A DNA stretch of 22,043 nt, from positions 1-22,043 of the IMG/VR virus record IMGVR_UViG_3300044616_001532. One strand, written 5' to 3'. This DNA comes from a virus. Position numbers and translations under genes: made by a program. Positions 1,531 to 14,085 of this stretch are shown one piece after another. Each line of letters opens with the position of its first letter. Positions within the stretch are counted from its first letter, which is position 1. A model generated the notes under the pieces. It was not told the DNA's origin. It worked only from the letters and a program-made list of their open reading frames with translations, and made no database searches.

Positions 1531-1886
1531 ACCTGCTCCTGCCACTCGGCATACTTGGCGACAATCCCTTCGGCGTACCTCTTGGCCTCATCAAGGCCAA
1601 TAAAGACTTCGCCTTCCTCGTTGTCGTGATAGACGACCTCGAACCACGGATTATTGTGGAACTCAAGTGCGCCGGACTTCTCAGCGTCAGCGAGCTTCTC
1701 GTCAGTATCAAGCCCCTTCGCGTCAAGGTCGTTCGTATACCGGAGAACGCTCGTGCTGCCGTCTGGCTCGGTAAGGTGAATCCTCATCTCGCCGTTGCGG
1801 TAAATGACCACGCTCTTATCGTCGGAGAACCACACCGGTTCGCAATCGTGATACGGCGTAAAGAAGGCCGCGTCGTTCCTGCTCAT
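1527..1886 (-). CDS. Hypothetical protein, 119 aa
   Basis: It starts MSRNDAAFFTPYHDCEPVWF. The start codon shares one base with the upstream stop (TAATG), and it ends in an ATGA overlap with the next gene, so three genes are translationally linked. The middle (EMRIHLTEPDGSTSVLRY) reads as beta strands, and the C-terminal part (LDEAKRYAEGIVAKYAEW) is a helix. No known family. Confidence 0.8.
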   Translation of the reverse strand: MSRNDAAFFTPYHDCEPVWFSDDKSVVIYRNGEMRIHLTEPDGSTSVLRYTNDLDAKGLDTDEKLADAEKSGALEFHNNPWFEVVYHDNEEGEVFIGLDEAKRYAEGIVAKYAEWQEQV

Positions 1887-2191
1887 TAGTTCCACCCAAC
1901 TTCCTGCCACGCGACAAAGCACTCGTCGCACAAATCCACCGACTCCTCATAGGCGTTCTCATAGCCGTTCCACCCATAGCGGAAAGGCCGCGCCTTCACT
2001 CCTGCGTGCGACCACTCAGGCCACCGGTTCGCATTGTCGCAAGTGCGGAAATCATCAAGGCCGTTGTTGTTCTGGTGCGTACCCTCGCCGCAATCAACGC
2101 AAGTACCACCGGACAACGGAACCTCACAACCACAACGGCACGCGCAGGTGCTTTCTTGTGGCTCACCAACCGGAATCTCAAACAAGTCCAT
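1886..2191 (-). CDS. Cysteine-rich zinc-binding protein, 101 aa
   Basis: The N-terminal third holds CACRCGCE and CVDCGEG, and a further CDEC lies near the C terminus, so one or two metal sites are likely. The start codon follows GGAAGGAGAGGACAG. It is the first gene of the unit driven by the promoter at 2235-2263. A long polar, aromatic linker separates the Cys clusters. No function assigned. Confidence 0.82.
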   Translation of the reverse strand: MDLFEIPVGEPQESTCACRCGCEVPLSGGTCVDCGEGTHQNNNGLDDFRTCDNANRWPEWSHAGVKARPFRYGWNGYENAYEESVDLCDECFVAWQEVGWN

Positions 2192-2212
2192 CTGTCCTCT
2201 CCTTCCTCTACG

Positions 2213-2263
2213 CCGGCAATCACCGGTACGACGAACACTACACCCAACGATTCACGCCGTCAA
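2213..2263 (-). promoter_or_regulatory. Promoter plus leader hairpin for 2191-1020
   Basis: TTGACG (2258-2263), 17 bp and TAGTGT (2235-2240), followed by a hairpin with stem CCGGT/GCCGG around GATT (2213-2226), then GGAAGGAGAGG. It lies directly after the strong stem that ends the candidate RNA. Confidence 0.75.
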
Positions 2264-2270
2264 GTATGAA

Positions 2271-2316
2271 GGGGGGAGTCGCCTAGGGGAACCACTCCCA
2301 AGTTGCGACACCCCCC
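2271..2316 (-). terminator. Strong closing stem, terminator-like
   Basis: GGGGGG-A-GTCGC (2271-2282) pairs with GCGAC-A-CCCCCC (2305-2316): 11 pairs and one mismatch, with a smaller stem inside. The minus-strand tail (TTCATACTT) is only moderately U-rich, so it may be a weak terminator or the closing helix of the RNA. It separates the RNA from the promoter at 2213-2263. Confidence 0.5.
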
Positions 2317-2509
2317 AAACCCTTTCGCGGTATTGACGCTTATCCCTGCCTTACCACTATGGACAGCAGAGGCAACATCGGCTCTCGCCTAGTTGCTGCC
2401 ACCGACACCCCTGTTGGTTAGACCCAAGCTCGGTGGCCTTATCGTCTCGGGCAGTTCGTCTATCTGCCAACTATCCGGCCTCTACCCGGAACGGAATACA
2501 AGACTACAA

Positions 2510-2548
2510 CATAAGAATAAGGGAGTCAAGCCCGAAGGCCTGACTCCC
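2510..2548 (-). terminator. UUCG-capped hairpin with U-rich tail
   Basis: On the minus strand GGGAGTCAGGCC pairs with GGCTTGACTCCC around TTCG (12 pairs including one G-U). It is followed by TTATTCTTATG. The shape is that of an intrinsic terminator. It could end a first RNA or be an internal helix of a longer one. Confidence 0.6.
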
Positions 2549-2805
2549 AGACCGGTAGCTCACCGGCCTTATGTCCTGAAACCTTCAGGAGCCGTCGCCC
2601 CCAAAAGTTTCAGTAGACTATTCGCTTCCGCCGGTATTGGCCTAAACCTTCCGGCTTCCACTTACAATCTTGCTCTCCCGCATTTACAGCAGCGATTAGA
2701 GCCCATCACTCGCCTGAACCACTTCGCATTTATTTGGCTGCGTGCTTTGTTCCTAACACTCTCACCTAGTCGGTAGCTTCTCCTAGGATTGCTCCCGACA
2801 CAAGG

Positions 2806-2834
2806 AGTTTCTCACAGGCGTATCAGCAAGTCAA
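2806..2834 (-). promoter_or_regulatory. Possible promoter of the structured RNA
   Basis: TTGACT (2829-2834), 17 bp and GAAACT (2806-2811) on the minus strand. The -10 box is poor, but position and spacing match the other promoters, and transcription would start at the base of the 2769-2799 hairpin. Confidence 0.45.
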
Positions 2835-2855
2835 GTAAGTTGCGGATAAGGTTTG

Positions 2856-2871
2856 TGTAAGGAATCTTAAC
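2856..2871. promoter_or_regulatory. Operator-like inverted repeat, copy 1
   Basis: TGTAAG-GAAT-CTTAAC, a slightly imperfect copy of GTTAAG-ATTC-CTTAAC. It lies 21 bp upstream of the -35 box at 2829-2834, next to G-quadruplex motif 2. Confidence 0.55.
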
Positions 2872-2877
2872 TATTTT

Positions 2878-2903
2878 GGGGTGTGGGGTATGGGGTATGG
2901 GGG
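2878..2903 (+). other. G-quadruplex motif 2
   Basis: Runs of 4, 4, 4 and 5 G are separated by three-base loops TGT, TAT and TAT. It is a near copy of the motif at 109-133 and again lies just past a minus-strand terminator (2943-2977). Confidence 0.7.
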
Positions 2904-2942
2904 TCGCGTATGAATAGCGTGGCCTGATGATGTCGAGCTACA

Positions 2943-2977
2943 AAAAGAATCCCCCGGCGGGAGGACTCCGCCGGGGG
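2943..2977 (-). terminator. Intrinsic terminator after the RadC-like gene
   Basis: CCCCCGGCGG (2951-2960) pairs with CCGCCGGGGG (2968-2977) over a 7-base loop. On the minus strand ATTCTTTTTG follows. It ends the unit whose last gene is 3021-3518. Confidence 0.85.
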
Positions 2978-3020
2978 GATAGGACTCGCGGGAGGGAGGA
3001 CACCCCCCTACAAGTCGTAG

Positions 3021-3518
3021 TTAGTTCAGGGTGCTGCTGTCCTCAAACATACTCGGCTTCTGTGAACGGATACTCGTGAACGCGCCGTTCGCCCCGACGA
3101 CCAGATGGTCAAGGAACTGAACATCAAGCAGCGTTGCGGCCTTCGCCACATCAGCCGTGAGCCTGATGTCCTCATCGGAAGCGTCGCACTCACCAGAAGG
3201 GTGATTGTGAACGAGCGCGAAACCGACCGCCCCCATCATCAGCGCGGAGCGGAGCAGTTCACCAATCCGCACCGAAGTTCCGGTCGCAGTACCAGAGTAG
3301 ATACGATGAATCCCAAGCAGGTTGTTGCGACCGCCAACGGCGACAACGAACAGAGCCTCAGACATCTCCGTATCCGCGAACTCGCGGAACAGCGCAACCA
3401 ACTCGCGTGGCGAGGTGATGATGGCCGACTTGTTGCTCAACTTCTTGCGAACGACCGAATACTCATAGTCCGACCACATACCGGTTTCCGCGATGCTATT
3501 AGGCTTCCTCTTTGCCAT
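3021..3518 (-). CDS. RadC-like JAMM metalloprotein, 165 aa
   Basis: It contains the full JAMM metal site: H104-N-H106, then S114 and D117 at the expected spacing, with HNHPSG exactly as in the RadC/DUF2466 family. A glutamate near residue 54 (SEALFVV) is in the usual place for the catalytic acid. This family is widespread on phages and mobile elements; its substrate is unclear, and a peptidase or regulatory role is only inferred. At 165 aa it has the JAMM domain but lacks the N-terminal helix-hairpin-helix part of bacterial RadC. The start follows AGGAGGGTTT. Last gene of its unit. Confidence 0.9.
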   Translation of the reverse strand: MAKRKPNSIAETGMWSDYEYSVVRKKLSNKSAIITSPRELVALFREFADTEMSEALFVVAVGGRNNLLGIHRIYSGTATGTSVRIGELLRSALMMGAVGFALVHNHPSGECDASDEDIRLTADVAKAATLLDVQFLDHLVVGANGAFTSIRSQKPSMFEDSSTLN

Positions 3519-7162: not shown

Positions 7163-7963
7163 TCAACCTCCTACTACGCCGCCGAAGTGCTCATCACAGA
7201 ACGACTCAAAGGCGGTCATTGGAACCTTATCATAGTTGCGTTCGTACCCGCGAGAGCCATCTCCTTCATCGAAGTAGGCGTCGTCTGGGAGATTATCGTT
7301 ATCAGAGCTGTATTCGTCTCGTGAGACGAACGACCCGCGCTCATACACAACCTCACCCGCAAAGCCCATACCCGCCTCGCAATAGCGATGCGTAATGGTA
7401 AGCGTTGGAAACTGCTCGGCAAGAGCCTCAATGACCGGCTCGGCTGGCGACCACGCCGTATCAAAGTTGTACGATGTGCGACCCTGCTCGGTAATCTCCT
7501 CGGTCGTGCGGTCGTGCCACACCTCTCCGCAGTTCCACTTGGTTCCCCAGTTGGCAACATTCCAGTTGTACCACCAGTCTGGCTGCGATGAAATCTGTCC
7601 GACCTTATGGGTAGGACATACTTCCGAGCCGCCGAATCCGGCAGCTACAAAGTCCTTGATGGTTCCGTTGTTCAGCACTTCCTTGACGACAGGGAAGCCA
7701 TCTACTACCCAGAGGCCTTCAGCCTTCTCGTAGCCTTCCTCGTTGTACAAGCCGACCTGCGCCTTCGTCTCGACCCAGACCTTCTTACAGCCACAGAGGA
7801 AATCGTTCTGGGTCTCTGCCGCAGAATAGATAGGGCTATCCGGTGTCGGCACAATCTTGGCAAAGTCAAACGCATCCTTATCGCCCTTCACCAACTCAAT
7901 GAGCCGCGCGACATCTGCCTCGTCGCCCTTTACATCAACCTGATTTACGCACCAGTTTGGCAT
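7163..7963 (-). CDS. Api92/YubB ferredoxin-like domain protein, 266 aa
   Basis: The MPNWCVNQVDVKG start and the later WYNWNVANWGTKWN and TAWSPAEPVIEAL blocks are hallmarks of the Api92/YubB-like (DUF1281) family found on phages and plasmids. The fold is ferredoxin-like; the function is unknown. The length is typical to slightly long, with an acidic insertion near the C terminus (SSDNDNLPDDAYFDEGDG). The start follows AGGAGGCAGT. First gene of the unit driven by 8005-8033. Confidence 0.88.
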   Translation of the reverse strand: MPNWCVNQVDVKGDEADVARLIELVKGDKDAFDFAKIVPTPDSPIYSAAETQNDFLCGCKKVWVETKAQVGLYNEEGYEKAEGLWVVDGFPVVKEVLNNGTIKDFVAAGFGGSEVCPTHKVGQISSQPDWWYNWNVANWGTKWNCGEVWHDRTTEEITEQGRTSYNFDTAWSPAEPVIEALAEQFPTLTITHRYCEAGMGFAGEVVYERGSFVSRDEYSSDNDNLPDDAYFDEGDGSRGYERNYDKVPMTAFESFCDEHFGGVVGG

Positions 7964-13466: not shown

Positions 13467-13672
13467 TGCGAATGAAGGTGTGCGTGCGCTGCAAGGAAGA
13501 TTGGCCAACGGATACTGAATTTTATAAAACACCCGAATCGCCAAAGTGCATCGCCTGCGAAAGCGAGAGTCAAGAGTGGCGGAAATACCGCACCCCTGAG
13601 CACATGGCTCGCCGGAGGGAATATCAACGCGCATATCAAGCGCGAAAGAAGCAGAGGGAGGCCCAGTCATGA
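13466..13672 (+). CDS. Small zinc-finger protein, 68 aa
   Basis: MRMKVCVRCKEDWPTDTEFY, then CIACESE, then a strongly basic helix (ARRREYQRAYQARKKQREAQ). The arrangement resembles the zinc-binding N-terminal part of phage endonuclease VII-like proteins, but the catalytic part is absent. The start shares a base with the upstream stop (TAATG). Confidence 0.82.
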   Translation: MRMKVCVRCKEDWPTDTEFYKTPESPKCIACESESQEWRKYRTPEHMARRREYQRAYQARKKQREAQS

Positions 13673-14085
13673 CCCGAAAGAAAATTGTCACAGCTGAAGA
13701 TGTGCGCGAGCTCAAAAAGCTCCTAGACACAGAGTACCTTACCTCGTTAGATGCGCCGGTGTCTGAGGAGAGCGACAGCTCCTTTGGAGATTTTCTCAAA
13801 GATGAGCACGCAGCCGACCCACTGACCGAGGCCATGAGGAACGCCATGGTAGAGGCGGTTCACTCGGTTCTTGACTCCCTGCCTTCGCGTGACCGGCAGA
13901 TCCTGTCCATGCGATACGGCATTGGTTTTCCCCGCCCGATGACCATGGAAGAGATCGGCGCAGAGTTTAGCCTCTCCCGTGAGCGTGTTCGCCAGATTGA
14001 GAACGCCGCCATGAAAACGCTGCGGCACCCAAGCAGAATGCGTAAAATGCGGCCGTACTCCGATGGCACCGGTAAGCAGCCATGA
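13669..14085 (+). CDS. Truncated sigma70-type protein (regions 3.2 and 4 only), 138 aa
   Basis: Residues 25-42 (TSLDAPVSEESDSSFGDF) match the region 3.2 linker of primary sigma factors. Residues 65-123 match region 4: MRYGIGFPRPMTMEEIGAEF, then SLSRERVRQIENAAMKTLRH and PSR. Region 4 binds the -35 box and the beta flap of RNA polymerase. Regions 1 and 2, needed for -10 recognition and melting, are absent; primary sigma factors are over 300 aa. It may act as a coactivator, a sigma4 mimic, or one half of a split sigma factor. The start overlaps the upstream stop (ATGA) after GGGAGG. Confidence 0.92.
   Translation: MTRKKIVTAEDVRELKKLLDTEYLTSLDAPVSEESDSSFGDFLKDEHAADPLTEAMRNAMVEAVHSVLDSLPSRDRQILSMRYGIGFPRPMTMEEIGAEFSLSRERVRQIENAAMKTLRHPSRMRKMRPYSDGTGKQP

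Follow-up and report, generated by a model that had tools for sequence, protein, structure and literature searches.

Positions 2271-2799 of the window, by which we mean the whole 22,043-nt stretch of virus-record DNA analysed here, hold two neighbouring minus-strand RNA genes, RNA-A and RNA-B, which very probably represent two new non-coding RNA families outside Rfam. The newness lies at the level of the RNA family, no known family being a fit, and we claim no new mechanism. An earlier note on this DNA had read the interval as a single ornate RNA of ~529 nt; we find instead two RNAs, ~280 and ~230 nt long and each with a promoter of its own, which elsewhere occur apart, fused, or alone. The span that it gave was almost exact, running from the predicted first base of RNA-A to the last paired base of RNA-B, and its central proposal of a real, structured locus agrees with the compensatory changes that homologues carry in the minus-strand helices. 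At the level of sequence evolution, both folds, the predicted start of RNA-A, a loop-loop contact of RNA-B, and the separate inheritance of the two RNAs are established.

In the window, 829 nt without a convincing gene separate a RadC-like gene (3021-3518, minus strand) from a small gene (1886-2191, minus strand), in keeping with the gene-free gap described previously. The upstream RadC-like gene ends in a strong intrinsic terminator (2951-2977, minus strand) that would insulate RNA-A and whose hairpin is conserved in 14 of 14 aligned loci, and directly 3′ of RNA-B lies a sequence resembling the promoter of the next gene (2235-2263, minus strand; TTGACG, 17 nt, TAGTGT). The neighbourhood of the RNAs is a cluster of small genes encoding RadC-like, DUF932, DUF1281/Api92-like, DUF7249, and DUF3846 proteins. 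Further along the window, positions 7163-7963 encode an Api92-like DUF1281_C protein, and positions 13669-14085 encode a sigma-factor-like protein (regions 3 and 4). A leader repeat with 84% identity, comprising a small hairpin and a ribosome-binding site, was also observed at 2246-2199 and at ~1019-972, with a different gene downstream of each copy.

Relatives of the locus were gathered through flanking-protein searches and DNA patterns and show graded divergence. Folding is stronger than that of shuffled sequence on either strand (z = −6.1 for the minus and −4.9 for the plus strand), so the strand is not decided by folding alone; the homologues place the structures on the minus strand, since the G-U pairs found there would turn into A-C mismatches on the opposite strand. 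The helices that had been listed beforehand do occur on the minus strand; among the 14 aligned loci, whole helices are exchanged, for instance CCACCGA/UCGGUGG for CUGACUC/GAGUCAG. The covariation on which the earlier note had made its reading depend was found in both RNAs. On an RNA-B alignment that was built without fitting to structure, 97.3% of the cells in 24 pairs are paired, vs 82.2% in shuffles, and this value falls to 28-42% once the partners are slid; in RNA-A, 94.0% of the cells in 30 pairs are paired, vs 79.9% in shuffles. Double-sided changes occur in 15 of the 24 RNA-B pairs (94 double-change cells vs 28.5 in shuffles) and in 21 of the 30 RNA-A pairs, counts that are inflated by sequence relatedness, the slid controls nonetheless collapsing. 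The plus-strand frame at 2393-2776, named beforehand as a possible member of a protein-coding family, is open for 127 codons in the window but is not conserved, being broken in relatives by frame-shifting indels and stops, and ~70 nt of this region are absent from loci in which the two RNAs are fused. In L028 and L063, where a promoter and a ribosome-binding site of its own precede nearly every gene, the RNA-A and RNA-B units contain no convincing ORF with such a ribosome-binding site. Judged from the aligned homologues, evolution has maintained the folds of both RNAs in related uncultivated phages, and each RNA combines covariation above controls and a conserved architecture with no coding signal, the features expected of a new structured RNA family.

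The predicted primary transcript of RNA-A occupies 2521-2799 (minus strand; ~280 nt overall), with a conserved body (2799-2569) that measures 226-235 nt in all loci and a covariance model that matches 15 phage contigs. It opens with a 5′ hairpin (2769-2799, minus strand; GUCGG...CCGAC) bearing the self-complementary loop UCCUAGGA, and this self-complementarity is kept despite changes in sequence (UCUAGA in L063, L079, and L027; GAGCCGCGGCUC in L023). Towards the other end stands a long 3′ hairpin (2576-2613, minus strand) with the invariant loop C-GACG-G, in which 14 of 17 pairs are changed on both sides; its native arms form 10 bp in the outer part vs 6 bp when arms are swapped, and in L025, L056, and L055 it is terminator-like with a U-rich tail. 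Folded alone, RNA-A reaches z = −5.9 against shuffled sequence. The 5′ end of the divergent RNA-A at L023:5697-5745 resembles a tRNA D-arm (GGCUCAAUGGUAGAG), probably by chance; a tRNA-like reading of it was dropped, as ARAGORN gives no tRNA.

The promoter-like and terminator-like elements that had been proposed for the locus take the form of TTGACT-17-NANNNT promoters and hairpins with U-rich tails. For RNA-A, the predicted promoter (2806-2834, minus strand) consists of TTGACT (2834-2829), a 17-nt spacer, and GAAACT (2811-2806). A TTGACN-17/18-NANNNT motif, present in 1.9% of 60-nt background windows, ends 5-6 nt before the RNA-A start in 19 of 19 RNA-A loci; the −10 box deviates from TATAAT, with A2 and T6 always present, and the fixed spacing predicts a start at 2799. 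The UUCG hairpin with a U-rich tail that had been noted before (2548-2521; with its tail TTATTCTTAT, 2511-2548, minus strand) lies between the two RNAs, separates them throughout the window clade, where it is the predicted terminator of RNA-A, and is absent from fused loci. Its 3′ arm contains the −35 box of the predicted RNA-B promoter (2501-2529, minus strand), which reads TTGACT (2529-2524), 17 nt, TAGTCT (2506-2501). TTGACT-17-TASTCT precedes RNA-B in the six window-type loci checked, and comparable promoters precede it in L063, L067, L027, L028, and L074. At seven other loci (L025, L077, L070, L071, L066, L062, and L065), RNA-B begins ~1-6 nt past a stop codon with no recognisable promoter; it can therefore come from another gene's transcript in some phages, which would suit either RNA processing or a cis-acting element. 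In L063, L028, L027, and L025, nearly all genes are built alike: a hairpin formed by the palindrome GTTC...GAAC comes first, followed by the promoter, a short 5′ hairpin, a ribosome-binding site, and the gene itself; the RNA-A and RNA-B units are without the last two of these parts. Palindromic GTTC...GAAC units also occur throughout the L067 locus, with promoters of the form TTGACN-17-NANNNT, and the short 5′ hairpins of the per-gene units in L063, L067, L027, L028, and L025 often have a CUU-containing loop.

The predicted RNA-B transcript (2271-2497, minus strand; ~230 nt) folds into helices P1, P2, P3, P4, P4b, P5, P6, P7 (GCGANA loop), and P8, and is found as a single copy per contig in 21 phage contigs. 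Its core (2334-2446, minus strand) comprises GACGAUAAGG (2446-2437) and GGAUAAGCGUCA (ending at 2334) and is closed by P3, in which GACG (2446-2443) pairs with CGUC (2338-2335). The core is invariant in 25 of 25 sequences except for the final bases of its first block, an invariance that partly reflects the fetching of loci by these same motifs, and P3, being invariant, is without support from covariation. The P4/P4b arm (2398-2437, minus strand) contains the previously described 8-bp stem (2437-2430 with 2405-2398) and the loop CUAACCA (2421-2415). An 11-pair stem that had been taken to close the whole locus does exist, as 6 bp (2316-2311 with 2276-2271) plus 5 bp inside, and is instead the local 3′ hairpin of RNA-B, P8 (2271-2316, minus strand). 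The P8 loop UGGUU (2294-2290) is complementary to AACCA (2419-2415) of the P4b loop, and the two loops covary across groups (AACCA/UGGUU, UGACUA/UAGUCA, UAACUA/UAGUUA, and UAAUC/GAUUG), with the contact down to 4 bp in some groups and a poor fit in L065. When arms were swapped between sequences, native arms paired better for P4, P4b, P5, and P7, most clearly for P4 (on average 6.8 bp native vs 4.2 bp swapped). Alone, RNA-B has a modest folding stability (z = −2.6 vs shuffled sequence).

Covariance-model searches of whole contigs recovered both RNAs in 12 phage contigs, RNA-A alone in three, and RNA-B alone in nine, the absences being provisional since the contigs are possibly incomplete; each RNA is present as one confident copy per contig. 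Where both occur, they stand in tandem, fused to each other, or 1-2 kb apart with either RNA first: direct fusion is seen in L013, L015, L036, and L014; RNA-A is upstream of RNA-B by ~1 kb in L063, L067, and L079 and by ~2 kb in L027; and RNA-B is ~1 kb upstream of RNA-A in L024 and L025. In L085 and L088, RNA-B sits immediately upstream of a gene. Neighbours, order, and position vary around a constant core, and RNA-A and RNA-B are, on these comparisons, inherited separately. The RNAs are carried by uncultivated tailed phages, on contigs of up to 86 kb. In head and portal genes, isolated phages are only distantly related to these carriers; two isolates gave a weak head-gene match, and one of these, Limnohabitans phage DC31, is without RNA-A and RNA-B. 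BLASTN against annotated phages and plasmids returned no match to either RNA beyond short chance ones, and the RNA-B core, when 85k prokaryote genomes were scanned for it, gave 13 matches, about the number estimated by chance and none amid RNA-B sequence. Additional viral scans yielded, for the RNA-A pattern, just one new contig, which is unmatched by the RNA-A model, and, for a looser RNA-B pattern, one true RNA-B (L124), the other matches being due to chance. A single ORF of ~3,990 codons (L105:55-12018) is found in a phage closely related to that of the window, and two adjacent paralogous small genes (MPVAYVKRALVQG... and MPTAFVKRALIQG...) lie near RNA-B at L062:1234-1572 and 1886-2224.

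A possible new class had been suggested from the window, with no claim to membership of GOLLD or ROOL, and our searches of known families are in line with both positions. At the gathering threshold, the 4227 families of Rfam gave no match in the window or in 14 related loci; within 2180-3030 there was no match up to E = 10; permissive thresholds applied to the window, L028, and L071 returned nothing consistent and no ribozyme, intron, RNase P, or tmRNA family; and ARAGORN found no tRNA or tmRNA in the window or in 19 related loci. Membership of GOLLD, ROOL, OLE, or pRNA is unsupported, as the covariance models of these families are unmatched, and tmRNA, RNase P, and group I or II introns were set aside on their family models and on ARAGORN. 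The pRNA of phi29 type is a short phage RNA with loop-loop contacts and in this resembles the RNAs of the window, which differ from it in having no Rfam match and in lying in a small-gene cluster with varying neighbours. GOLLD and ROOL form RNA cages whose functions are still open (PMC12286853). GOLLD is, like RNA-A and RNA-B, a structured phage-borne RNA, and many of its members exceed 800 nt and often lie near tRNA islands (PMC12286853); RNA-A and RNA-B, with their separate promoters, fall below this size, and their loci differ in having no tRNA-island neighbourhood, a soft indicator. ROOL resembles them in being phage-borne, structured, and pseudoknotted with no known protein partner, and the example studied is 659 nt long and its class often near tRNA islands (PMC12286853), whereas RNA-A and RNA-B are shorter, with no tRNA nearby and no Rfam match. 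Since the GOLLD and ROOL models are unmatched and no tRNA is nearby, we do not claim membership; it is possible that RNA-A and RNA-B work like GOLLD or ROOL without belonging to them. OLE is likewise a structured non-coding RNA, one that dimerises, as RNA-A and RNA-B possibly might, but it is ~600 nt long and cellular, mostly in Bacillota (PMC12054373), whereas RNA-A and RNA-B are carried by phages and have no Rfam match. Grad-seq of phage PhiKZ detected phage-encoded non-coding RNAs, one of ~100 nt (PMC8545117); these are, as is predicted for RNA-A and RNA-B, non-coding transcripts between genes, and they differ in the ~100-nt size of that one and in that annotated phages showed no relation to RNA-A or RNA-B.

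Invariant internal loops amid variable helices usually mark a binding surface. We propose that RNA-A and RNA-B, carried singly or jointly by a group of uncultivated tailed phages, would each be transcribed from its own sigma-70-like minus-strand promoter and ended by a hairpin, as RNA genes of a small accessory-gene cluster. Their invariant internal loops would bind a specific partner, for which the ribosome or a protein of the host or the phage is the likeliest candidate, and the RNAs may act in trans during infection as decoys, inhibitors, or scaffolds. A trans-acting role is favoured because own promoters recur and the core stays the same amid changing neighbours, and the single confident copy per contig also counts towards it; the promoterless RNA-B at seven loci, its position in L085 and L088, and its z of −2.6 count against our reading. 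We regard such a role through binding of a protein or the ribosome as a tentative proposal, and the whole statement, two RNA families plus this role so weighted, as reasonably probable. A broader picture, of two new, separately inherited phage RNA classes that would, as RNA genes of an accessory island, influence host defence or translation in trans, possibly as homo-oligomers built through palindromic or complementary loops, is speculative and on balance doubtful.

Several alternatives were weighed against trans-acting RNA genes. RNA-B, and perhaps RNA-A, could be a cis-acting structured 3′UTR that ends transcripts, protects mRNA, or tunes a flanking gene, as might be suggested by the RNA-B copies that start a few nucleotides past the stops of several different genes, by the U-rich tail that follows its 3′ hairpin at some of those seven loci, and by the copies just upstream of a gene; this is unlikely given that two groups have a promoter dedicated to RNA-B and no translated sequence between that promoter and the RNA, that neither flank holds a constant gene, that its conservation far exceeds the need of a terminator, and that contigs carry a single copy though many genes would profit. 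It is rather more unlikely that one or both are RNA-only homo-oligomers joined by loop-loop contacts, similar to yet unrelated to GOLLD, ROOL, and OLE, phage or bacterial RNAs that set the precedent for such complexes (PMC12286853). The RNA-A 5′ loop stays self-complementary through its sequence changes and the covarying P4b and P8 loops of RNA-B could pair within or between molecules, but the two RNAs are just a third to half the size of those precedents, and the RNA-A palindrome may be a mere small hairpin whose change amounts to about one or two events.

That RNA-A and RNA-B are the halves of a single RNA, coming together in the manner of two-piece tmRNA, would fit their adjacency in the window clade, their fusion in four loci, and their separation by 1-2 kb in others, reversed in order in two; base pairing between them is not above that of shuffled pairs, however, and the three RNA-A-only and nine RNA-B-only contigs, several of them 36-57 kb long though maybe incomplete, make this improbable. 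Compact folds whose purine-rich internal loops are invariant, together with the pseudoknot-like contact, would also suit a ribozyme, a decayed intron, or a distant form of RNase P or tmRNA, but the permissive Rfam searches and ARAGORN matched no such family and the surroundings lack exon-like conservation, so that we consider this highly improbable. An unremarkable gap or a protein-coding region, for which the 127-codon frame would speak, has a negligible chance of being correct given the indels and stops of the relatives and the strong minus-strand base-pair covariation.

Known families of large structured phage RNAs are few, and the RNA genes of the window add two, with tight boundaries, predicted starts, and folds tested by covariation. 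Their natural variants, in tandem, fused, split, RNA-A-only, and RNA-B-only, are ready-made experiments.
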